DNA of 64,000 bases from Halobacterium bonnevillei (GCF_009831555.1 NZ_WUUU01000001.1:62001-126000), one strand, 5' to 3'. Shown: positions 23,399-37,250, counted from the first letter of the stretch. Notes: a model not told the origin generated them from the sequence alone. Program-made: numbers and translations.

Positions 23399-24406
23399 TC
23401 AACGATCTCGCATCGCAAGTACGCCACCCGCGAGTACCGCAACAACCGCAATACCGGCTCCGAATCCAGGTACCGATGTCGACGTTGGCTCCGTGCCGGT
23501 CGGAGAGGCAATTGAACCCTGGGGTGTGGTTGTGGGACCGCCAGTTGTCTCACCGCCGGATGCAACGGTCGTTGTCTCTGTTCCCTTGACGGTACTGGTC
23601 GTTGACGTCTGTCGTGTTGTTTGAGTCGTCGTACTTGAACCGGTTTTTGGTTGAGTTGTTGTTGGTACGCTCGTCGTCGTAGCAGCAGTTGTTTCCGTAG
23701 TGTTGTCGCCACTCGTTGTGGTGTCACTGCCCCCGCCTGCACCATCATTGTTGCCGCCCCCACCGGTGTCTGATTGCTCAACAGTTACCGTTCTGCTGGC
23801 TTGGTCTGAATTACCCGCTGCGTCAGTGACTGTCAGAACAACCTCCATTGTGCCAGCTTGCTCGAACGTGTGATTGGTTGTTTCGCCAGTTGCGTCAGTC
23901 GACCCGTCATTGTCGAAGTCCCACGCGTACCTGAGGAATGCCCCGTTGTCGGTTGAGTCAGTCGCGTCAAATTGAACCGATTCGCCGACAGACACGGTTG
24001 TATCAGTCCCCACAGCTGCAGTCGGTGACTGGGTGTCCGTTAGCGTAAGGTTTAGTTCAGTGACCTCACCGGGATCAACCGAATCAGTTTGTCCGGTATC
24101 TAGTCCCGCAACACGGAACTGGACAGTGTCGTCCTCAGTAGCATTCACAGCAAGTTTCTGGTCGAAAGCCCCCGGTCCTCCGTAGGAACCACCGGTGACC
24201 TCGAGTTTGTCCTTGACTTCGCCGTCGACGATGGCGGTGACCACAACGCCATCGGGGGCAGGGTCACCGTTGATTGTCACGGTCCCGTAGTAGGACTCCG
24301 GTGGTGACGGTTGGGTAGCGCTCGCGGTCGCCACGCCCGCTGCAGTAACGACAATGAAGGCCAAGAAGATAGATCGGAGTCTTGCACCCTCGAAATTGAC
24401 ATCCAT
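23399..24406 (-). CDS. Surface protein with carboxypeptidase-like N-domain, PKD domain and PGF-CTERM
   Basis: A 335-aa exported protein: a signal peptide (LRSIFLAFIVVTAAGVATASA), an N-terminal beta-domain (PESYYGTVTINGDPAPDG) shared with the giant protein at 28915, a PKD domain (YAWDFDNDGSTDATGETTNH), a Thr-rich linker and a C-terminal STSVPGFGAGIAVVAVLAGG, then basic residues. That last part is a PGF-CTERM signal for archaeosortase-linked lipid anchoring. The ATG at 24406 gives the best signal peptide. It is probably an S-layer-associated adhesin or structural protein and is encoded downstream of the subtilase. Confidence 0.85.
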   Translation of the reverse strand: MDVNFEGARLRSIFLAFIVVTAAGVATASATQPSPPESYYGTVTINGDPAPDGVVVTAIVDGEVKDKLEVTGGSYGGPGAFDQKLAVNATEDDTVQFRVAGLDTGQTDSVDPGEVTELNLTLTDTQSPTAAVGTDTTVSVGESVQFDATDSTDNGAFLRYAWDFDNDGSTDATGETTNHTFEQAGTMEVVLTVTDAAGNSDQASRTVTVEQSDTGGGGNNDGAGGGSDTTTSGDNTTETTAATTTSVPTTTQPKTGSSTTTQTTRQTSTTSTVKGTETTTVASGGETTGGPTTTPQGSIASPTGTEPTSTSVPGFGAGIAVVAVLAGGVLAMRDR

Positions 24407-24499
24407 AAGGTTAGCCAGGCAGTGGTACGTCAAAAGTTTGTATGGTTCTCCGTACTCCGGAAGGGGGCTACGCAGGTCTGATTACGTGACCCGATCTCA

Positions 24500-27400
24500 T
24501 CAATACGTGTTGATGGATTCTATGAATCGCTCGATGGAAATCCCCCTGGGGATGTTCGCGGCGATCGTACCGTTGTCCTCTGCGTACACGAAGTACCCGG
24601 AGAATGCGCTAACCTCCGGTGCGGTTTGAGTGCTCCCCATCGTGTACACCGTCCAGTAATCATCACTGTACGAGATTTGACTGAACGGGTCCTCGTAGAC
24701 GTTCACGACACGTGCGGGATCAGCCGACGACGCCGCAAAGGCATCCTCGGCGTTTCCGTATTGAGGTGCCCCGACGAAGTTCCAGCCTTCGTGCATGTCA
24801 CGAGCGGCGGGGACTTTCGTCGGGTCGTCGCTGTCTTCGAAGTCGATGACAGCCCGTGCGGTCGTGTCCGGCACGACGAGGAGTGCATCAAGCGCGTCAA
24901 GCTGTTCGTCGTTGCCGGGCGTAATCTGATACCAGGCCTGGCTCTCAGCGTCAAAGCCATAGATTACGCCGTTGAAGTCGTTGAACATCTGGCTGAGGTT
25001 CCCTTCCGTTGGGCCAGGAACGGCGAAGCTGTATGCTTGGCCGGGTTCCATCACGACGTCCGTTGCGAACGCCTGAGTTCCGATGCCTTGCTCGCTTTCA
25101 CCGCCCTCAGTTGAGAGATTGGCTTCGGCCGGTGGCGCAGTAAGGAATGGGTCGTATTCGATGTCACTTACGATCGCGCCACCTGTGGATTCGACGGTGG
25201 TGCTCGGACCGCGGACGTCGCCGTACCAGTTCATCCGCGCTGAGCTTTCATACCCATCGAGGGCTTGTATGGCGAGGGACGTATCCTCGAAGTTGTTATA
25301 CTGTGCGTAGGTTTCCTCGGCGAGGATGCCGACTGCGGAATTGAACTCACTGCGGTAGGAGTCACTGTAGGGTTGCGTAATGCCGTAGTGAGTCGTGTTG
25401 AACACGCTCCGGTAGGCGTTAGCGGATCCTCCGAATCCGGTCATACCGGTTTTACCCTCAAAGTTGACGCGTTCGGCGTACGTTCCGCCGAAGTATTCTC
25501 CGGCGTAGGTTTCAATGCCTGTGGTGGCGACGATTGACGAATCCCTCACAGTAACGTACGACCCGTAGTTGTAGATGCCAGCTTCGTAGCTGACATCGCC
25601 CGCCGTCGGGTTGATGTAGCTGTCCTCGATGTAGACGTCCGACTGCGCGGCGTAGACGCCCCACTTGGAGTACGAGGAGTCTGTAACTGACGTGTTCTGC
25701 ATCCGAAGGTCAGCGTCGAGGGCGATTACGGGGGCGTACTCGCCGGTGACTGTGCTATCTTGGAGTTGAAGCGACTGGTGGGTGAAGGTGCTGACCTCCT
25801 GGGTTGCGCTCTGGAGCGCTTCAATGTCTTCCCGGGAGATGTCAGAAAGCGTCTCGTTCGCGTATTCGACCCGCTCGGTTGCATTCATCTCCTGGATGGC
25901 CGAGCTGGCCATATCAACGGACTGAGCGGCGATGTCGTCAGCACCCGTCTGGTTTGTGATTCCGGACAGTGCGTGGTACTCGTCAGCTGAGAGGTGCTGG
26001 AGGTTGTGGACCGTGACGGTCTGGCCCGCAACTTCGGTGGTGTGTTCGGTCGCTGTCGCATCGAGGAGGGTATCGAGGGTGTCCGACGAGACGGAGTACC
26101 CGGTCGCCTCAGCGAAGACGGTTCCGGTTACGCCCGCGGAGACGTTCGACCCCTCAAGCGTGGTGTTTCTAACGACCGTTTCACTTGCACCGAGCGTCCG
26201 CAGAGCGCTACCAGCTTCAGATGTCAGCGACGACTCTCGGATTATCGTCTCATCTGTTCCGATGAGTTCGACTGCGTCTGCCGCAGCGGAAATACCATCG
26301 GGCGCGTCAGCCAACACGGACGTATCGGTGATTGTCGTCCCGACACTGTTTCTGACCAACATCCCGGTCGCATTCCGGTTGTTGGAAGAGGCGATGCTCG
26401 TCCCCGCGATAGTCGTATCCGCTACGTTATTTAGTGCAACACCGATTGGGAACTCTGCGTCACCAGCTGACGTCGTCGAGATCGACAGCTGGCGGAGTTC
26501 AATATCGTCTGCGAACAGGCCGTAGACGCCGTATGCGGTTTTCGAGATACGGACGTTCTCAACAGTCGTTGATTTCCAGCGGCGACAACCCCAGTATCGT
26601 CCGTTGTGGAGTAGTTCCCCTCAACAGCGACATCGGCCAGGGTGGCTCCGTCGTTGAGAACCACGGCTTCCGTGGCCTCGCTGTCAAAGACGACGTTCGC
26701 GGAGCTGTTGCTCTCGATGCGGAGTTCAGAGGGAACCTGCAGTGTGTTATTGAGTGTGTACGTTCCTCCTTCGAAGCGAACTGTGGTGCCTGGTGCAGCG
26801 AATGAGAGGACGTTGTTGATCTCGGACTCGTTTGCGGTGTCCTCCACGATTAGCGGGTCGGGGTGGACTTTCAGCTGTTGGGTCGCCGTCAGGGAGTCAC
26901 CGCTAGAGTGATTCTCGAACGTAACGTCGAATGCGGGCGTGGCCCGTTGTTCGTCGACCGCGATGCTGACCGTGAAGTCGTCCGTCGAAGCGGTCGGGCT
27001 GACGCTCAGGTTGGCCGGCAGTCCGGATCCTGACGAGACTCCGTTGACGTAGACGGTCACACTCGATTGGTCTGCCAGTTGGTGGTTCGAGTAACTCGAG
27101 TTGAGCGTCACGTTAACCGAGTCAACGTTGGACACCCGGAGGTTCGCAGTGAAGTTCTCTCCCGGCTCAAGGTACGGCTCGGATAGGTCGTTGACCCGTA
27201 CACTGACGTTTTGGTCAGTCACGACGCGGTCCGCTGCCGCAAGCGCGTCGATAATGCCATCACCATACCGTGTCGGGTCGGCCCCAGCTGGTGCATTGGC
27301 TGTCTCCTGCAGCGATGACTTCAGGAGGTCTGCAGACGGATTATTGTTGGCTGCGGACACCAGAAGGGCTGCAGCGCCGGAGACGTATGGCGCTGACATG

Positions 27401-28689
27401 CTCGTTCCGGAAATCCGAGCGTAGTCATCGTCTGGAGCCGAGCTGAGGACGCTCACGCCAGGTGCGACGACGTCCGGGACAGTGTAACTACTTGGCCACG
27501 ATGGTGGCGGACTACTGAAGTTCGATTTGTAGACGACTTCGCCACTTGAGAACGAGGCGATCTCTCCGTTGGCGTCTGTTGCACCGACGGACAGTGTTTC
27601 GTAGATGTTCCCGGGTGAGCCACTAGTTCCAGGACCAGCGTTTCCGACAGAGGCGACGACGACGGTCCCGGCCCGTTCGGAGTTGCGCACTGGGGCGATA
27701 AATTCATCGAAGTGGCCGGTCGCACCCAGACTCATACTGGTAACGTCCGCGTCGTTGGCAACGGCCCACTGCATGCCGGCGACGATCTGGGCGAACGTCC
27801 CGCTGCCTCCGTCTAACACCAGGCCGTGGTAGAGGGTTGCGTTCGGCGCTGCGCCGATGTATTCACCATTACTGTTGTCCCCGACAACGATGCCGCTCGT
27901 GTGCGTACCGTGCCCACCGGTGTCGTGTGCTTCATCTACACCTGAAGCCGTGATGTCACCGGTCGGACCGAATTCAGCGAATTTTTCGAGTGATTCTTCG
28001 ATTGCTGGGTGGTCACCGTCAACGCCGGTGTCGAGAACGGCTACTTTGGCCCCTTCCCCCATCGTGCCGTACTGGTCCCAAACTGCTGTCGCGTTAATTT
28101 GTTCAGGACCATAGGTCGCGTTATACCCGGTCTGGGTTGCGGTGACGTCGGTGCTGGAAACGTCTGAAGACGTTCCTGGATCACCGGGGAGGGATACTTC
28201 GAAATTATCTCGAATCTCAGTTACGCCGTCTGCTGCTGCCAGTTGAGAGATGTCCGCGCCTGGCTGTACTTCTACGACGATTGCGTTCGTGAGCCAGAGG
28301 CGTTGTTTGATGGACATGCCCGCGTTGTTTGATGCCACACTCGCGGCAGCTTGCTGTGTCTGTTTTGCGTGGTCTTTGAGCAAGCGTTGGGCCTCTGCAG
28401 GCGGTGTCCCCTCAGGGATGTTCGCCTCGGTTAACTTGACGATAATCGTGTCGGTTGTGTCACTATTGAGGTTAGCGCGTATCGGTGCGGCGTCGCCGTC
28501 CGCGGATGAGATTTGGTTGGTTACCTCCCCATTAACAGAGAGTGCTGTTTCCCCCGTTGCAGTCTCAGTGGTCACCGATGCACCGGCAGCCATCCCGATA
28601 CTGGCTGCCGACACAACGAGCAAGAGCACCTGAAAGACCGCCAATGCAGTTCTACGCGAAGCCATACGGATGAATGCATTAGTGGACAT
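24500..28689 (-). pseudogene. Subtilisin-like protease fused to a parallel beta-helix domain, frameshifted
   Basis: The 5' frame (26431-28689) has a signal peptide (LAVFQVLLLVVSAASIGMAA), an I9-like propeptide (TIIVKLTEANI, LTNAIVVEVQPGADI) and an S8 domain. The catalytic triad is intact: VAVLDTGVDGDHP (Asp), GGHGTHTSG (His) and ISGTSMSAPYVSG (Ser), with ASVGNAGPG for the oxyanion Asn. A CARDB-like domain and the start of a beta-helix follow. The reading frame shifts near 26569-26577. The next frame (to 24500) continues the beta-helix (NosD-like repeats) and ends in a C-terminal domain. The full protein would be about 1390 aa. It is divergent from the giant dockerin gene. Confidence 0.8.
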
Positions 28690-28914
28690 TAATAATTCTT
28701 TACTGAAATTTTCATCCCCTTGACCCCATGTCAATAACTTTATTGAAATGGTGGTTAGGACAGTATTAAACCCTGTTAGGATTGCGTTAAAGAGAATGTA
28801 TACTAAAACATCCAATGATTTTATCCTGATTGCCGATTCTGACTGTAACTATGTCTATCCAGTGGCAAAAGCTAACTATTGGGGGCTTAGAGCGACGGAC
28901 TCGATTCGGGGAGG
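28690..28914. promoter_or_regulatory. Divergent promoter region between subtilase and giant dockerin gene
   Basis: A 225-bp AT-rich spacer (TTAATAATTCTTTA near 28690; several TTAAA/TTTATC motifs) separates the two head-to-head genes. It must contain both promoters; a TATA-like AAAGCTAACTATT lies 35-45 nt before the 28915 start. Joint control of the two genes is plausible. Confidence 0.5.
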
Positions 28915-31900
28915 ATGGCTAACATGACGCGACACTGGCAAACAATCGGTGCGGTCATGTTCGCGATCATCCTCATCGCCGCGCCAGTTAGCGGCGCCGC
29001 CACAACTCCCTCAGTGATAACAACTAACACACAGGTACAGGACCCATCTCTACAAACCGATACGAATGCAACGGACGACGACCCGCCTGATGCACCTGAA
29101 TCCTACTACGGCAACGTGACAATCGACGGCCAGCCCGCGCCAGCGGGGACGGTTATTACGGCCCTAATCGACGGTGAGGTCAAAGGTCAAATCACCGTCG
29201 ATACCCCTGGCTCATATGGCGGGCCGAAAGTATCTGATGAGAAACTCGTGGTCAACGCCAGCGAGAACGGCAGCACAGTTCGGTTCTTCGTCGGCAGCCT
29301 CGAAGCGAACACGACCGATGAGTTCCAATCTGGAACGAACTCCGAACTCGATCTCGCGTTCGACGATACGGAATCGCCGACCGCTAACGCCGGCTCCAAC
29401 TACCAAACCCTCGAAAACGAACCGGTCACATTCGACGGATCCGAATCCACCGACGACGGACAACTAATCACCTACGAATGGGACTTCGGTGACAACACCG
29501 AAAACGCCACCGGCGTCTCTCCGACTCACGAGTACAGCGAAAACGGGACTTACACAGTCACGCTGACAGTCACTGACGCCGCGGGCAAAACTGATACTGA
29601 TACAGCGACAGTCACTGTAGGCGCAGTCGAAAACCCCCCGGAAGCTGACTTCACAGCCACACCTACGAATCCCGAAGCTGGCCAAGAAATTACCTTCGAG
29701 AATCAAAGCACCGACAACGGAACCATCGAACGCGTTGAATGGGACTTCGATGGTGACGGAGAGACTGACGCCGAGGGCGATACCGTAACTCACCGATTCG
29801 GCGTCCCAAGAACGTACAACGTCACACTCACCGTTACGGATGACAGCGGATTCCAAGACACCCACGCAAAACGCATTACCGTTTCACAAACTGAGCGCGA
29901 TCTCGCCGCGTCGCCCACAACTGGCTACGTGAACGCCACAACTGTCGACTTCGAGTTACCCAACACGGACAACCTTCACGTTGATGAATACGAATGGCAC
30001 TTCGATGACGGAACACCTCTCGATAGTACCTCGTCACCGACCACTGCCCACGTATACAATCAGGATGGTGCGTTCAACGTTACAGTCACCGGCTACAACA
30101 ACGGGACAACCGTCGTCACTGGCAACGAGACGGTAACCGTTGAAACCGTCAGCGGCACACTAGACTCCAGCCAGACTCAAGCGGTCGTGAACTGGACGAC
30201 ACTGGATCTCTCTGCAGAAGCGTCGGAACCGGTCAATCAGTCCGCACTCACTTACGAGTGGGACTTCGGGAACGGACAGACAGAGACCACCGACGCAAAC
30301 GAAACAAGTTATGTGTATCCCAGCGCAGAGAACTTTACAATCACAGTCACGGCACGCGGTGATGGTGGACCGGTATTCACCGATACGATCGATATCTCAG
30401 TCGAGCGGGCAAAAGGGTCGCTCTCCGCGTCACCGGACACCGCGTACACGAACGTGACAGCGGTGAATTACACTGCGACCACCGACACCGACGGAATCAC
30501 TCCGACGGCGTACGAGTGGGACTTCGATGGCGACGGTGTTTTTGAAAGAACGACGACGAGCAATGAAGCCGCCCACGTCTTCACCCAAAGCGGTTCGTTC
30601 ACTTCGACGGTTTCAGTGAAGAGCCAGCACGGCCGCCTGTTCAAAGCAGAGACACCAGTCACGGTCCAACAACCGGCTGGCGATCTAACGGCGACTCCCA
30701 CAAGTGGGTTTGCTAACTCGACGACGGTATCGCTCGAATTAGCGAACGTTTCGGAATCGGTACGGTCGAATATCGATCACTACCAGTGGGACTTCGGCGA
30801 TGGAACAACCCGCGAGACGGCTTCGAATTCGACAACGCGTGTCTACGCTGAAACCGGCGAACACGAGGTAATCGCATACGGGATTGATAGTGACAGTGAT
30901 ATCATTGTCTCCGCCGTGACGACGGTTACCATCGAGCGGGCAACCGGCCAGGTAACGACCGAACCGGCTCCGATTCGCGCTAACGTCACGGAAATGAACG
31001 CCACGGTGACGGATGTCACGCCAGAAGTCAGTGACGACATTGAGCACTACGAGTGGGCGTTCGGTGATGGAACGACGGAGACAACAACTTCAAACGCGAC
31101 CACCCACACCTACTCGCAGTCCGGCAGCTACACACTCACCGCGACGGCGGTCACCAACACCGGGGACGTCCTCTTCGATACGCAAACCACCATTGACGTA
31201 CTCGAGGAAGGCCGCCCCACGGCAGCATTCACCTGGACTCCGACCCAGCCAACGGTCGGCGAAACGGTCACATTCAACGCGTCCGCAAGCACTGATAACG
31301 ACCCGCTTGCGAGCTACGAGTGGGACTTTGATAGCGACGGCACCACGGACGACAAGGGCGAGACTACACAGCACACGTTCACTGAGTTCGTCGGCGAGCG
31401 GAACGTCACACTCACTGTCACCGACCAAGACGGGCTCACCGAGTCGACACAGCACACCGTTACTGTCGTTCGCGCCAACGGTGACCTCGTTGCAGATCCG
31501 ACTACGGGGTACGCTAACTACACGGCGATCGGTTTCCAATTGACAAATGTCACTGCCGACATCGACGCGGCGGAATACGAATGGACATTCGGTGACGGCA
31601 ACAACATTACGACGATTGGAAACACGACGACGTTTACCTATACCGAGCCAGGCGACTACGAAGCAACCGTCACCGCACTAAACGACCAAGGGGAGACGCT
31701 CGTCGTAGAATCCGAAACTGTCTCTATCACGCGCGCTAGCGGCGATGCAACAGCAACGCCGAACGATCCATACGCTAACTGGACCGACGTCAACTTCGAA
31801 GTCGAGAACGTCACGCCGGGCGTCACTCCAGCCGCCTACGAATGGGACTTCGGCAACGGTGACAGCGACGTCACCAGTAGCAATGCGACAACATACACGT

Positions 31901-34900
31901 ATAGCCAACCTGGCGAGTACGAAGCAACCGTCACCGCACTCAGCAGTGATGAAACCGTTCTCTTCACGCGCACGATTACCATATCCGTCCAGCGAGCGGA
32001 CGGTGAGCTTGCCGCTTCCCCCTCACCAGCGTTGACGAACGTAACCGAAGTAACTCTAACCGCCACCACCACCTCCCCAGGTGTCGACCCAGTTGCCTAC
32101 CAGTGGTCGTTCGGTGACGGATCGACGAGAGTTACAACGGCGAACACTACGACACATCTCTACTCATCCGCCGGCAACTACACTACAGAAGTCCGTGCTC
32201 TGAACGGGGACGGCCAACCCCTGTTCACGAGAACAGCTACCGTTGAGGTAGTCGACGGTGATATCTCAGTAAGTATCAACACGCCAGCTGAACAGCGCAT
32301 CCAAGATGGCGTGCTGATGAACGTCACCGTTACCAACGAGCGAGGAATCAAAACCCCCGGCGTGAACGTGTCAGTAGAGGCCCAGGGCGACTACTATTAC
32401 ACCCGCGACGAACAGACGTCAGCAACGCTCGGCCCAGTGACGCTGAACGCGTCGGAATCGAAGACCCTCACCTGGAACATCACAACCTGGGCAGACCAGG
32501 AACTGGACCCATCCAGTTACTACAACGGCCGCATTGACTTGCGTGCCACTGCCGATCCCGGCGACGAGATCCCAGAGGCCAACGAAAGGAACAACCGCGA
32601 CGCCGCCGACACCGTCGCGACCTTCACTGACATCGAGACGTACGTGTACTCGTACTATCGGGGCGTGATCGGCGATCAGCATGAAGTGGATGTAACAATT
32701 GAGAATGAGGGCTCAGCAGGTGCTAAACAGCCCCACAACGTCACTGTCTCGATGGGTGATGGAACAACGAAGGAGATCAACCTCTCCGCGGCCGAACTTG
32801 GGGCGGGTGAGCGGAACTACCAGACAATCGAATACACCTACAGCGAACGTGGTGACTACCAAATCAACGCCACCGTACTCACTGATCCGCAGTACCCCGA
32901 GAACAACCGGTCCACGGATTCAGTCAGAATCCGGCCGTTCGAGCTCTCAATGGACTATGTCAACGCACCATATGAGGTCGAAAACGGGAGTACGTTCACG
33001 GTCTACGGCAGCTACGACACGAACACGGAGACAGAGGTTAACCTCTCAATCGAACTGCCAGATGGCCTTGAGCTAGCGGATGGGGAGTCACGCACAAAGA
33101 CCGATCAGTCGAGTCGTTGGGGCGGATCCGAGCGTTGGACAGTCAAAGCGACAACCCCCAGTGACGACTACCAGATCAACGTAACGGCTACCGCGCGCAA
33201 TGAGTCGGAGACGAACTCCGACACGACAACGGTCATCATTCCGAAAATCCGGGTTACCGACGAAGCAGCAGCGGTCGTCTCTGGCGGCGATTCGAACTCA
33301 TCAACCGGAGAACTCATCGTCCGGAATGAGAGCACCTTCGACCACGAGATTACCCTCTCCGTGCAAGCCGGCTTCGAAGGACGGACCTTAGAAGGTCTCG
33401 AGTACCTCTTCAGCTATCCGTATGGGTGCGTCGAGCAGACCACGTCACCGATGCTCGCCGCACTTCACACCGACCAGTATTACCGTGACCGCATCTCCCC
33501 GGGCGACTACGACCGTGACCGCGTGAATAAGTCAGTCGCAATCGGGATGGAGCGACTGTCAAGCGGCGATAACGCTCAACATGACAATGGAGCGTGGAGC
33601 ATGTGGGGCAACAGTCCCAGCGGAGACCGGTTCTACACGATGTACGCGCTGTTCGGGTCCGCATCAGTCCGAAACGACGAAGCGTACGGCACGAACTCGG
33701 GAACTGCATCAACTGCGAGTGCGGTCTCCCCGTACGCCCAGGACATCTCGACGAGCATCGACGCAATCGATTACAACCAGACGATCCACTGGATTCGAGA
33801 CATCCAGACCGACGACGGTGCAATCGAGAGTGACGGGTACTTCCTGGACGACGATCCGGCTATGACCGGCTATACGCTCGTTACGATCGAGAAAGCGGAG
33901 CCGTTCAACGAGTCCACCCAGTCGGTCGCAACAGCGGTGCGCCGCAATGCGACCCAGTATCTCCTCGAGACACAGGAAGACAACGGATCGTGGAATGACG
34001 ACAACGCAAAATCGACCGCAATTGCAGTCTGGGGTCTCCAGACGGCCGTCGAATCCGGCCTGGATAATCAAACGCTCAGTACCCGCGCGAACGAATCTAT
34101 CGACGACGGCGTCGAATACCTGCTCCAGACCCAAGCACCAACTGGCAAATGGGTTGAAGATCGGTCTTCGTACTGGAGTTCAACGGGTACCACCAGTCAG
34201 GCAACCGCGTACGCGCTACTCGCGCTCAACAGCACCGGCTACACTGCCGATAACCGAACCATCCAGAAGGGCGGCGAGTATCTCGTCGGCGTCTACGACG
34301 ATGAAGGGTCGTGGGGCTTCACCGAAGCCACCGCGATCTCCATCCGTGCACTCCAAGAAATCGGGCAAGGGCTCGGCACCGTCGATAGAACGGTTACCAT
34401 TGACATCAACTACGAGAACGGTACGACCGCCTTGACAAAGGAAGTCACCGTCAACGAATCGAACTCGGTTGCGCGCATCTCACTAACAGCTGACGAACGG
34501 AAGAAACTCCGGCAAGGGTCGGTGACGAAGACAGTCACCGTCAATGCGACGGGGACCGGGACGGTCGTTACCGCAATCCGAAACGAACAGCTCGTCAACC
34601 GGGAAGAATACGAGGACACCGAGCAAGCACGGAGTGGCACCTCGCAGTCACTGGCGACGCTCGAAAGCACCGCCCTCGACACGGGCGGGAATAGCATTGG
34701 CACGCAGGCACCACCGTTCTCAGTGTCGGTGGCAAGCGACGACGAGCTCAGTGCCCGCAATGATCAGACGATGGCTGTCACCGTCACCAACAACGGTGAG
34801 TCGAACATGTTGAGCCCGATAGTCGAGATCCCCATCAGAGGCGGGTTCAACGCCTCCGCAACGCTTGATGCTACCGCGTACGCCGGAACGGAGACGGTAA

Positions 34901-35883
34901 GCGAGAACCGGCTAGGGACTCGCCTCTCGGAAGTCAATACCAGCACCCTCACCGATGGCGATTCCATTTACGTCTTCGCACGCGACGTCCCTGCGGGGTC
35001 GAGTCGCACCTACACCGTCGACGTTGATGTGGGGTCACCTGGCGACATCGACGTGACCGCAGACATCCGTCCGATGTACAATGAGTCGTTCAACGTCCGC
35101 ACCAGCCAAACGCTGACCGCGACTGGACTCGGCGACGTCAACATTGATGTCGTCGACGAGCAGGCATCACCGGTGGCCGCTGATATCAGCATCGATGGGA
35201 CGCAGGTCGCGACAAACACCGCATCGACAAGCACGGAGCTGTCAACCGGTGACCACGAAATTTCGGTGGTTAGCGGAGACACCGCTCGGAGCCTGAACGT
35301 GTCACTTGCGAACTTCGAGACTGCGAACGTCACGTTTGTCCAGCCGGACACCGTGACTGAACCGATGGTCGTTGCGCGGACGGGCGACGAGATGGCCGTG
35401 AAGTCAGGAACCCCGGCCCGAATCGTCGAGCAGACAGCAAACGCAACTGCCGCCGAAGAAATCCGGCGGACGTTCGACATCGCGTCCTCGGGTGGCACGA
35501 TGATTGTTGCGTTCAACGAGACGACCGAACGGGCAGTTCAAGCGGGTGCCGAACCGTCCATCACAGTAGACGGTGCGGATACGTCCAACTGGACGTACAC
35601 AGCCGGTGAAAATGGTGGCCCATCGACGATCAAAATCAAATCCGATGGCGACGTCCAGGTGAACATTACGTACGACGGTAAGAAACTGGGTGAAGTGACC
35701 GGCGACAACTCGGTCACCGCTGACGACGCGGCCGCAATCGCCGACGCAATCGCGAACAACGAGGCTGTCTCGAGCTACGGGGACGTCAACAATGATGGCG
35801 AGGTCACAGTCGTTGACGCCATGATGATCGCCCAATACGCCGACGGAGCGCGTGATGCGGACTATCAGGAGGGTGATGCCTGA
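28915..35883 (+). CDS. Giant exported protein: PKD repeats, alpha-2-macroglobulin-like thioester domain, C-terminal dockerin
   Basis: 2322 aa. It has a signal peptide (AVMFAIILIAAPVSGA; start at 28915 or the ATG at 28924), the N-terminal domain shared with the protein at 23399 (PESYYGNVTIDGQPAPAG, ~60-150), about ten PKD-type repeats (~155-1115, repeated YEWDFG), then CARDB-like domains (~1115-1480). Next is an A2M/complement thioester domain: SYPYGCVEQTTS at ~1500, with Cys1505 and Gln1508 as the thioester pair, followed by an alpha/alpha toroid with repeated QxxxGxW (QEDNGSW, QAPTGKW, DDEGSW) to ~1830. Further beta domains follow, and finally a dockerin (2263-2322; VTADDAAAIADAI and DVNNDGEVTVVDAMMIA, with EF-hand-like Asp/Asn). 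The stop overlaps the next start (TGATG). Thioester domains covalently attach to nucleophiles or trap proteases. Confidence 0.9.
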   Translation: MANMTRHWQTIGAVMFAIILIAAPVSGAATTPSVITTNTQVQDPSLQTDTNATDDDPPDAPESYYGNVTIDGQPAPAGTVITALIDGEVKGQITVDTPGSYGGPKVSDEKLVVNASENGSTVRFFVGSLEANTTDEFQSGTNSELDLAFDDTESPTANAGSNYQTLENEPVTFDGSESTDDGQLITYEWDFGDNTENATGVSPTHEYSENGTYTVTLTVTDAAGKTDTDTATVTVGAVENPPEADFTATPTNPEAGQEITFENQSTDNGTIERVEWDFDGDGETDAEGDTVTHRFGVPRTYNVTLTVTDDSGFQDTHAKRITVSQTERDLAASPTTGYVNATTVDFELPNTDNLHVDEYEWHFDDGTPLDSTSSPTTAHVYNQDGAFNVTVTGYNNGTTVVTGNETVTVETVSGTLDSSQTQAVVNWTTLDLSAEASEPVNQSALTYEWDFGNGQTETTDANETSYVYPSAENFTITVTARGDGGPVFTDTIDISVERAKGSLSASPDTAYTNVTAVNYTATTDTDGITPTAYEWDFDGDGVFERTTTSNEAAHVFTQSGSFTSTVSVKSQHGRLFKAETPVTVQQPAGDLTATPTSGFANSTTVSLELANVSESVRSNIDHYQWDFGDGTTRETASNSTTRVYAETGEHEVIAYGIDSDSDIIVSAVTTVTIERATGQVTTEPAPIRANVTEMNATVTDVTPEVSDDIEHYEWAFGDGTTETTTSNATTHTYSQSGSYTLTATAVTNTGDVLFDTQTTIDVLEEGRPTAAFTWTPTQPTVGETVTFNASASTDNDPLASYEWDFDSDGTTDDKGETTQHTFTEFVGERNVTLTVTDQDGLTESTQHTVTVVRANGDLVADPTTGYANYTAIGFQLTNVTADIDAAEYEWTFGDGNNITTIGNTTTFTYTEPGDYEATVTALNDQGETLVVESETVSITRASGDATATPNDPYANWTDVNFEVENVTPGVTPAAYEWDFGNGDSDVTSSNATTYTYSQPGEYEATVTALSSDETVLFTRTITISVQRADGELAASPSPALTNVTEVTLTATTTSPGVDPVAYQWSFGDGSTRVTTANTTTHLYSSAGNYTTEVRALNGDGQPLFTRTATVEVVDGDISVSINTPAEQRIQDGVLMNVTVTNERGIKTPGVNVSVEAQGDYYYTRDEQTSATLGPVTLNASESKTLTWNITTWADQELDPSSYYNGRIDLRATADPGDEIPEANERNNRDAADTVATFTDIETYVYSYYRGVIGDQHEVDVTIENEGSAGAKQPHNVTVSMGDGTTKEINLSAAELGAGERNYQTIEYTYSERGDYQINATVLTDPQYPENNRSTDSVRIRPFELSMDYVNAPYEVENGSTFTVYGSYDTNTETEVNLSIELPDGLELADGESRTKTDQSSRWGGSERWTVKATTPSDDYQINVTATARNESETNSDTTTVIIPKIRVTDEAAAVVSGGDSNSSTGELIVRNESTFDHEITLSVQAGFEGRTLEGLEYLFSYPYGCVEQTTSPMLAALHTDQYYRDRISPGDYDRDRVNKSVAIGMERLSSGDNAQHDNGAWSMWGNSPSGDRFYTMYALFGSASVRNDEAYGTNSGTASTASAVSPYAQDISTSIDAIDYNQTIHWIRDIQTDDGAIESDGYFLDDDPAMTGYTLVTIEKAEPFNESTQSVATAVRRNATQYLLETQEDNGSWNDDNAKSTAIAVWGLQTAVESGLDNQTLSTRANESIDDGVEYLLQTQAPTGKWVEDRSSYWSSTGTTSQATAYALLALNSTGYTADNRTIQKGGEYLVGVYDDEGSWGFTEATAISIRALQEIGQGLGTVDRTVTIDINYENGTTALTKEVTVNESNSVARISLTADERKKLRQGSVTKTVTVNATGTGTVVTAIRNEQLVNREEYEDTEQARSGTSQSLATLESTALDTGGNSIGTQAPPFSVSVASDDELSARNDQTMAVTVTNNGESNMLSPIVEIPIRGGFNASATLDATAYAGTETVSENRLGTRLSEVNTSTLTDGDSIYVFARDVPAGSSRTYTVDVDVGSPGDIDVTADIRPMYNESFNVRTSQTLTATGLGDVNIDVVDEQASPVAADISIDGTQVATNTASTSTELSTGDHEISVVSGDTARSLNVSLANFETANVTFVQPDTVTEPMVVARTGDEMAVKSGTPARIVEQTANATAAEEIRRTFDIASSGGTMIVAFNETTERAVQAGAEPSITVDGADTSNWTYTAGENGGPSTIKIKSDGDVQVNITYDGKKLGEVTGDNSVTADDAAAIADAIANNEAVSSYGDVNNDGEVTVVDAMMIAQYADGARDADYQEGDA

Positions 35884-37250
35884 TGCGCGCTCGCTTGAGG
35901 AGTGTACTAACGGTCTGTGTTGTGCTTGCGGTAGTGGCCGCACCAAGTGTTGCGTTCGTTGTGCCAACGGCGGCCCAAAGCACGCCGACGGTGAGTATTG
36001 ACGCCCCGGACACTGTTGAGAATGGCGTCACTGCGAATGGCCCACTCGTTGTCGAAAATGTCGCTGCTGGAGACGACATTGGGGCGTTCAAAATCAACAT
36101 CACGTACAATGCCAGTGCTGTCTCGATTGACGCATCTGACACCGACCACTTCACCGTCTCGACGTCGACACCAGAGAGTGGGACACTGACAGTCGTCGGC
36201 TACACGAGTGAGACAGACACGCCAGACGGGGCGCTCGCACTCGCAGCACTAGATATAACTGGTGAACAGCCCACTGACGCGACTGCGATGTCGATGGATG
36301 TGGAGACGCTATCGGATACTGATGGGAATTCGGTGCCACATTCAAGCCGTGCTGAGACGCTCACAGTAACGGAATCATCGACCGAAGATGGTGATGGTGA
36401 TGACGGGTCCGACGGCGGCACCGGACCTGGTGGCGGCGGCACCGGACCTGGTGGCGGCGGCACCGGACCTGGTGGCGGCGGCACCGGACCTGGTGGCGGT
36501 GGTGGTGGCGCCGGAGAGGGTGACACCGAGAAACCGACTGGGCCGCTGCAAACAACAGTCTCGCAGCCGTCACCCAACCAGGTCGCCATCAGCATCACAA
36601 ACCTGTCAGCGAACACGCCGACCGACGTGACCCTGCCTCGGACAGACGTAGATAACTCAACAGGCACGCAGCTCTCAGGTGTCTCCGTGAACGCTCGGAT
36701 TGCGACAAACGTGAGTGTCTCCATCGATCGGAGTGAACAGGTTCCAGAAGGGACGCCTGCGATCGAAGAGAGTCAACAGGCGGCTTCGCTTGGATACTTC
36801 ACAATTACAGCTGATGTCCAAGACCCGGACCTCAACGAAGTGACGTACACGTTCGAGGTATCCAAATCCCGCATCGAGGAAGCTGAGATAACCCCGAGAG
36901 GTGTTCGCCTCTTCCGGTTGGATGAAGGGGACTCTGAATGGACGACGCTTGCAACAACGGTTCGCGAAGAGCGTGAGGACACTTACGTCTTTACAGCCTC
37001 TAGCCCCGGCTTCTCGGTGTACGCGATCGGGTATAATACCGCTCAAGAACCGAAAACCACATCCCAAACCACCACGGCGCCAGTTGAGACGACGGACATG
37101 GACTCTGAAGAAACCACCGAGGAGGCCACAACCGTGATACCGACAACTCCCGGGTCGTCCAGCGACGGGTTCCCCACGAACTTAGTCGCAGGGGGTGTCG
37201 TGATACTGGTAGTCGCTGCATTACTGTACTATTCGCGTCGAGGGAGCTAA
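35883..37250 (+). CDS. Cohesin-domain surface protein with PGF-pre-PGF domain
   Basis: 455 aa. It has a signal peptide (VLTVCVVLAVVAAPSVAFVV), then a cohesin domain (~35-165: ENGVTANGPLVVENVAAGDD, IGAFKINITYNASAVSID, GTLTVVGYTSETDTPDGALA), and a Gly-rich linker of four exact GGTGPGG units. A PGF-pre-PGF domain (~220-385, ASLGYFTITADVQDPDLNEV) and a Thr-rich stretch follow, then a C-terminal membrane helix (VAGGVVILVVAALLYY, then SRRGS). The classic PGF motif is not present; GFPTN stands in its place. Its start overlaps the dockerin gene stop, so the two are co-translated. The cohesin is the natural partner for that dockerin. Confidence 0.85.
   Translation: MRARLRSVLTVCVVLAVVAAPSVAFVVPTAAQSTPTVSIDAPDTVENGVTANGPLVVENVAAGDDIGAFKINITYNASAVSIDASDTDHFTVSTSTPESGTLTVVGYTSETDTPDGALALAALDITGEQPTDATAMSMDVETLSDTDGNSVPHSSRAETLTVTESSTEDGDGDDGSDGGTGPGGGGTGPGGGGTGPGGGGTGPGGGGGGAGEGDTEKPTGPLQTTVSQPSPNQVAISITNLSANTPTDVTLPRTDVDNSTGTQLSGVSVNARIATNVSVSIDRSEQVPEGTPAIEESQQAASLGYFTITADVQDPDLNEVTYTFEVSKSRIEEAEITPRGVRLFRLDEGDSEWTTLATTVREEREDTYVFTASSPGFSVYAIGYNTAQEPKTTSQTTTAPVETTDMDSEETTEEATTVIPTTPGSSSDGFPTNLVAGGVVILVVAALLYYSRRGS
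36414..36497 (+). repeat. Four 21-nt tandem repeats in the cohesin linker
   Basis: GGCGGCACCGGACCTGGTGGC occurs four times head-to-tail, encoding GGTGPGG each time. It is a spacer that can change length by slippage. Confidence 0.85.

Follow-up and report, generated by a model that had tools for sequence, protein, structure and literature searches.

Thioester proteins form the covalent arm of animal innate immunity. In the superfamily of complement components and alpha-2-macroglobulin (A2M), proteolysis exposes a buried thioester, which then bonds to a nearby nucleophile (PMC4498604). Archaeal homologues of A2M and of the thioester-containing proteins (TEPs) have been described with a CxEQ motif from Halobacteria and Methanomicrobia, one of them in Haloferax gibbonsii; some of their neighbourhoods contain endoproteases, an uncharacterised gene often follows the TEP homologue, and roles in immunity or conflict were proposed (Makarova et al., 2021; PMC8416519). 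The text of the same study mentions neither cohesins nor dockerins (PMC8416519). These docking modules are known from cellulosomes and from non-cellulosomal cohesins (Archaeoglobus, PDB 2xdh; C. perfringens, 2vo8/2jh2), systems with a type I dockerin, a cohesin partner and a cohesin that anchors to the surface.

The locus described here lies in a 64,000-nucleotide stretch of Halobacterium bonnevillei DNA (the window), and its features are listed in Table 1. It shares the type of protein, the clades, the CxEQ motif, the H. gibbonsii example and the nearby endoproteases with the homologues described in 2021, whereas the text of that paper contains no fused protein of thioester domain (TED) and dockerin, no cohesin anchor and no dockerin-mediated protease linkage (Makarova et al., 2021; PMC8416519). 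The sequence-only reading of the window had proposed an exported giant of 2322 aa with PKD repeats, a YGCVEQ thioester motif, QxxxGxW and a C-terminal dockerin. Overlapping the stop codon of this giant was the start codon of a cohesin protein, described with a Gly linker and, at its C-terminus, a membrane helix. Open reading frames and Pfam matches bear out the architecture of the giant, both reading frames and their TGATG junction are present in the sequence, and the second protein agrees with its description, the cohesin being marginal in Pfam and confident as a predicted fold. Cys1505 of the YGCVEQ motif is the sole cysteine of the giant, and QxxxGxW occurs three times.

Table 1. Features of the thioester locus, in positions of the window
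Feature	Position	Strand	Basis
PKD and PGF-CTERM protein with the N-terminal ESYYG domain of the giant	23399..24433	-	paralogous start module
Frame-shifted S8 continuation, right-handed beta-helix region	24500..26620	-	frames read; Pfam Beta_helix E 2.9e-7
S8 subtilisin-like protease gene, divergent from the giant	26431..28815	-	Pfam Peptidase_S8 E 6e-45; frame break near 26560-26620
Exported giant, 2322 aa	28915..35883	+	signal peptide, PKD repeats, CARDB, CUB-like/TED, MG-like region, dockerin
About 11 PKD repeats, stalk of the giant	29371..32244	+	Pfam PKD_4, 11 stretches, E 4e-116
CARDB domain of the giant	32263..32598	+	Pfam CARDB E 3.9e-7
Beta domain, TED and returning beta strands (CUB-TED-CUB-like unit)	32977..34629	+	AlphaFold2 pLDDT 85.5; Foldseek
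Thioester domain TED_complement, aa 1492-1815	33388..34359	+	Pfam PF07678 E 3.5e-12, above cut-off
Thioester motif CVEQ, Cys1505-Gln1508	33427..33438	+	translation
MG-like region of the giant	34702..35694	+	alignment to Haloferax/G101 proteins, 31-38% identity
Type I dockerin, C-terminal, aa 2261-2308	35695..35838	+	Pfam Dockerin_1; archaeal dockerin profile matches solved dockerins
TGATG stop/start overlap, giant/anchor	35881..35885	+	sequence GCC TGATG CGC, one-base overlap
Cohesin surface anchor, 455 aa	35883..37250	+	ORF, Pfam, alignment to relatives
Cohesin domain	35982..36368	+	Pfam 24.7 bits isolated; model pLDDT 90.1; PDB matches are cohesins including archaeal 2xdh
Acidic, then Gly-rich linker (TGPGGGG repeats)	36369..36524	+	translation
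PGF_pre_PGF domain	36828..37028	+	TIGR04213 E 2e-12
C-terminal membrane helix, then RRGS	37179..37235	+	translation; aligns with PGF-CTERM tails of relatives

For the 551-residue TED unit, AlphaFold2 predicts a beta domain, an alpha/alpha toroid and further beta strands, and the best PDB matches of this model in Foldseek are complement C5, A2M, CD109, C3 and TEP1 (E about 1e-18 to 3.5e-22). Over the whole unit of TED and beta domain the TM-scores are about 0.55, which probably reflects that the domain orientation is not fixed in the model. Compared with the PDB, the archaeal TED sequence profile matches E. coli YfhM, CD109 and TEP1, and C3 more weakly. Matches to prenyltransferase/squalene-cyclase enzymes in NCBIfam and the PDB cover only the shared alpha/alpha repeats, and an enzyme of this kind was rejected, as the motif region and the fold match complement TEDs. 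By its helical TED profile and its CxEQ motif, the giant belongs to the TED superfamily (PF07678), the thioester itself being predicted. Pfam returned no MG2 or A2M match in the giant, and the macroglobulin ring with its bait region, the hallmark of alpha-2-macroglobulin proper, was not detected; PKD repeats are found instead. The giant thus has the TED fold and the position of the TED between CUB-like beta strands in common with complement C3/C4/C5, insect TEP1, CD109 and animal A2M, as well as the CxEQ thioester motif with those members that keep it, and it differs from them in the undetected ring and bait region, in its PKD stalk, in its dockerin/cohesin tether and in being archaeal. The bacterial A2M YfhM of E. 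coli (4ziu/5a42) likewise has CxEQ and a helical TED but, unlike the giant, is a lipoprotein linked to pbp1C (PMC4498604), neither dockerin-anchored nor encoded beside a subtilase.

Every archaeal cassette member that we read has an intact CxEQ; at the methanogen loci L148 and L149 it has the form CPEQ and is not lost. The thioester cysteine is the only cysteine in the TED proteins of the window and of Haloferax when residues within two assembly scars are set aside, and the methanogen members have several cysteines each. The scars lie in the middle of the TED genes of the Haloferax loci L014 and L015, where runs of N are flanked by CLLYTS/LSLIHIS-like peptides that are probably adapter remnants from assembly and give rise to false cysteines.

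Profile searches place the dockerin, the cohesin (as an isolated domain) and the TED above their cut-offs. Dockerin_1 (PF00404) scores 28.8 bits (E 1.4e-6) with the whole giant and 46.3 bits (E 5e-12) with the isolated domain, at a cut-off of 22.9; the second loop is a canonical D-N-D...D and the first is degenerate, and the profile of the archaeal dockerin proteins matches the solved dockerins 2ccl, 1ohz and 1daq in the PDB. The cohesin (PF00963) reaches 24.7 bits against a cut-off of 24.1 (E 2.9e-5) with the isolated domain only, and the Pfam search with the whole 455-aa anchor did not report it. A profile from 19 aligned archaeal cohesin domains has a single significant PDB match, 2xdh (E 0.0014), which is the non-cellulosomal cohesin of Archaeoglobus fulgidus, and for the AlphaFold2 model of the anchor domain (pLDDT 90.1) nearly all of the top 30 PDB matches in Foldseek are solved cohesins, with TM-scores up to 0.83. 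Leave-one-out profiles built without the window score 59.7 bits for the dockerin, 106.0 for the cohesin and 569.6 for the TED, far above the best shuffles at 14.5, 9.5 and 7.6; therefore, neither chance nor acidic composition explains these calls. The anchor also carries a PGF_pre_PGF surface domain, absent from the features listed by the sequence-only reading. Before its C-terminal helix it reads DGFPTN in place of the PGF motif of PGF-CTERM/archaeosortase substrates, where the relatives have PGFG. The anchor is the one recognisable cohesin of the genome, and its two dockerins are those of the TED giant and of a second S8 protease on contig C22. The proteins searched from the window and the cassettes contain no glycoside hydrolase domain; the cargo of the cassette is a thioester protein and proteases, whereas that of cellulosomes is glycoside hydrolases.

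A survey for the gene pair recovered the combination of TED, dockerin and cohesin in haloarchaea and also in methanogens: the three are adjacent in Haloferax (L014-L020), in the haloarchaeon G101 (L021), in Methanogenium marinum (L024) and in 17 sampled methanogen genomes, as mostly overlapping or touching genes, and the domains are either fused in a single protein or spread over separate thioester, dockerin and cohesin genes. In the window's order, 7 of 293 genomes have the TED, and strong TED matches (E < 1e-42) in the phylum come from 3 haloarchaeal and 17 methanogen genomes; none was found in the sampled members of the window's own genus. The cassette is thus conserved across haloarchaea and methanogens, yet rare. 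In Haloferax and G101 it consists of three genes, which encode a TED giant, an MG-like protein of about 400 aa that ends in a dockerin, and a cohesin protein whose tail is of the PGF-CTERM type, with 4-base overlaps between the dockerin and cohesin genes at L014 and L021, and the alignment shows the first two of these genes joined in one polypeptide in the window. Ranked by decreasing identity to the window, the relatives come in a similar order (L014/L015, L016, L021) for the anchor, dockerin and TED modules, which is consistent with inheritance as a unit. Methanogen TED proteins often begin with a cohesin and usually end with a dockerin, and downstream of them follow a cohesin of about 250 aa with a membrane helix and then a membrane-anchored protein of about 1050-1360 aa. 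Profile-profile comparison identifies the divergent methanogen anchors, too, as cohesins (98.1%, E 6.6e-14); for the anchor at L142 this identity could not be shown. The TED tree unites the 25 archaeal cassette members in one clade (100/99) and the haloarchaeal ones in another (100/99), in which the window is the first branch with modest support (86/89). Since the window has the fused form and branches first, the fused form may be older than the split one. Plasmid-borne relatives were not found for the TED, and for the anchor only matches in the PGF_pre_PGF region were seen.

Some of these loci have further neighbours. A gene for a DUF1616 membrane protein adjoins the cassette in Haloferax and in some methanogens (L016:12225-13250, L024:18006-19040, L145:18346-19329); it is absent from the window and was rejected as a universal partner. 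The DUF1616 protein of H. volcanii is an N-glycoprotein encoded in a surface-protein cluster (PMC8241124). In Haloferax, a second dockerin/cohesin pair (L160:1828-6361) consists of a 5'-nucleotidase-type dockerin protein followed by a 336-aa cohesin-like PGF-CTERM protein.

The most informative partner is the adjacent subtilisin-like protease, which the sequence-only reading had not listed. An S8 gene lies within about 15 kb of the TED in 15 of the 18 genomes checked, where 0.46 would be expected from the numbers of S8 genes; the product over one genome per family is 2e-13, a value that assumes independent genomes, though they are related, and that is to be read as "not chance" and not as an exact figure. 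In six methanogens (G601, G530, G564, G556, G425 and G305), the sole S8 gene of the genome sits at the cassette. The S8 protein at the cassette usually bears a dockerin. In M. marinum and most methanogens, the S8 gene opens the operon, and cohesin and/or dockerin modules lie at its end; the cassette S8 protein of Haloferax has a dockerin, and in G101 S8 is fused to the TED polypeptide. No S8 gene was seen in the stretch read at the methanogen loci L136, L148 and L149, nor in the flanks read of the second Haloferax copy (L014 type). The S8 gene of the window is apparently broken by a frameshift near 26560-26620, which may be a sequencing error or mark a pseudogene, and no dockerin was seen on it.

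Dockerin-bearing subtilases also occur apart from the cassette. The S8 protease on contig C22 of the window's genome (L022:10881-12605) is a subtilase with a C-terminal dockerin, and its neighbours are a giant repeat protein and a PGF-CTERM protein whose linker is a long poly-Gly stretch. In G101, five tandem subtilases with C-terminal dockerins (L161 and L162; C1:466500-494000) adjoin a PGF-CTERM-like protein of 1257 aa in which Pfam finds eight cohesins; the array is a haloarchaeal scaffold of the cellulosome-like kind, with proteases on it.

With modest confidence, we favour the reading that the locus encodes a surface-tethered, protease-linked covalent-capture complex. Conservation of the pair as a cassette in both haloarchaea and methanogens supports a thioester protein that docks on the surface. 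The giant would be exported and form a hidden internal thioester in its complement/A2M-type TED, carried on the PKD stalk; its C-terminal dockerin would plug into the cohesin of the anchor translated with it, and the C-terminal helix of this anchor would hold the complex in the membrane or S-layer. The subtilisin-like protease, encoded next door in the window and in the same operon or polypeptide in relatives, would cleave or otherwise activate the TED protein (or its targets), and the exposed thioester would then form a bond with an amine or hydroxyl group of whichever molecule or cell is nearest. The latter would thereby be fixed to the surface of the archaeon, in defence or as a means of attachment. 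The domains and their folds, the conserved CxEQ motif, the conserved cassette and the protease linkage are established by the analysis, and for the pairing of dockerin with cohesin it gives adjacent genes and co-occurrence; we infer the dockerin–cohesin binding, the formation of the thioester, its proteolytic triggering and the target. Against this reading we count the undetected ring and bait region, the apparently broken S8 gene on which no dockerin was seen, the degenerate first dockerin loop, the rarity of the cassette, the loci at which no S8 was seen in the stretches read (L136, L148, L149 and the L014 type) and the TM-scores of about 0.55. A bolder version, which we put forward tentatively as a possibility, is a self-contained complement-like device of archaea, in which a dedicated surface subtilase would act as convertase on the docked thioester protein, and this protein would covalently tag viruses, competitors or proteases at the cell surface, the whole being assembled by cohesin–dockerin plugs.

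The main rival is protease restraint, in which an A2M-like TED protein would be cut by the archaeon's own docked subtilase or by foreign proteases and trap them covalently, so that the S-layer is protected. Bacterial A2M, to which this mode of action is attributed (PMC4498604), and CD109 are among the PDB relatives of the TED, and the TED gene does adjoin an S8 protease. The cage, however, needs the macroglobulin ring and bait region that Pfam did not detect, a dedicated and often sole S8 in the same operon or, in G101, in the same chain fits an activator at least equally well, and bacterial A2M genes are linked to pbp1C and not to a protease (PMC4498604); we consider restraint unlikely.

The cassette could also belong to a nutritional protease complex akin to a cellulosome, in which the TED protein and dockerin-bearing subtilases would dock together to hold and digest proteins. 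The G101 array of dockerin proteases beside an eight-cohesin protein would suit this, as would the one cohesin and two dockerins (TED giant and S8 protease) of the window's genome, but several of the cassette-bearing methanogens have a single S8 gene, methanogens as a group do not live on protein digestion, and a covalent bond would use up the TED each time, so that we regard this as very improbable. Less far-fetched, though still quite improbable, is a covalent adhesin or matrix cross-linker, whose thioester would tie cells to neighbours, mineral or biofilm matrix while the protease only matures proteins. In its favour, surface proteins of archaea typically have PKD/CARDB stalks and PGF-type anchors, but the domain is a complement/A2M TED and not the SfbI-type domain of Gram-positive bacteria, which we take to be a different family. 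Also in its favour, the SfbI-type adhesins are surface proteins that use an internal thioester for covalent attachment, as proposed for the giant, and they bind the host covalently (PMC4450167). Against an adhesin also speak the thioester of the complement/A2M superfamily, which is normally released by proteolysis (PMC4498604), and the Pfam search of the giant, in which no carbohydrate- or mineral-binding domain was found.

The sequence-only reading was not aware of thioester and cohesin/dockerin modules joined in one archaeal operon. Because archaeal A2M/TEP-like proteins were published in 2021, only the cohesin–dockerin coupling looks new, and a search of the openly available literature found no archaeal thioester protein joined to a cohesin or dockerin. 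New, too, are the docking modules as such, the occurrence of one cassette in a fused and a split form, the recognition of the anchor as a cohesin protein and the link to module-sharing subtilases, here put into numbers. Archaeal relatives of complement thioester proteins have been known since 2021, but no mechanism came with them. With a conserved cassette in which such a protein is tied to one specific protease and one specific surface socket, the mechanism becomes testable, namely which protease triggers the protein, to what it bonds and whether the cell is defended by it. The cassette also extends cohesin–dockerin assembly past polysaccharide digestion and provides a clear example of dockerin-borne proteases in archaea.
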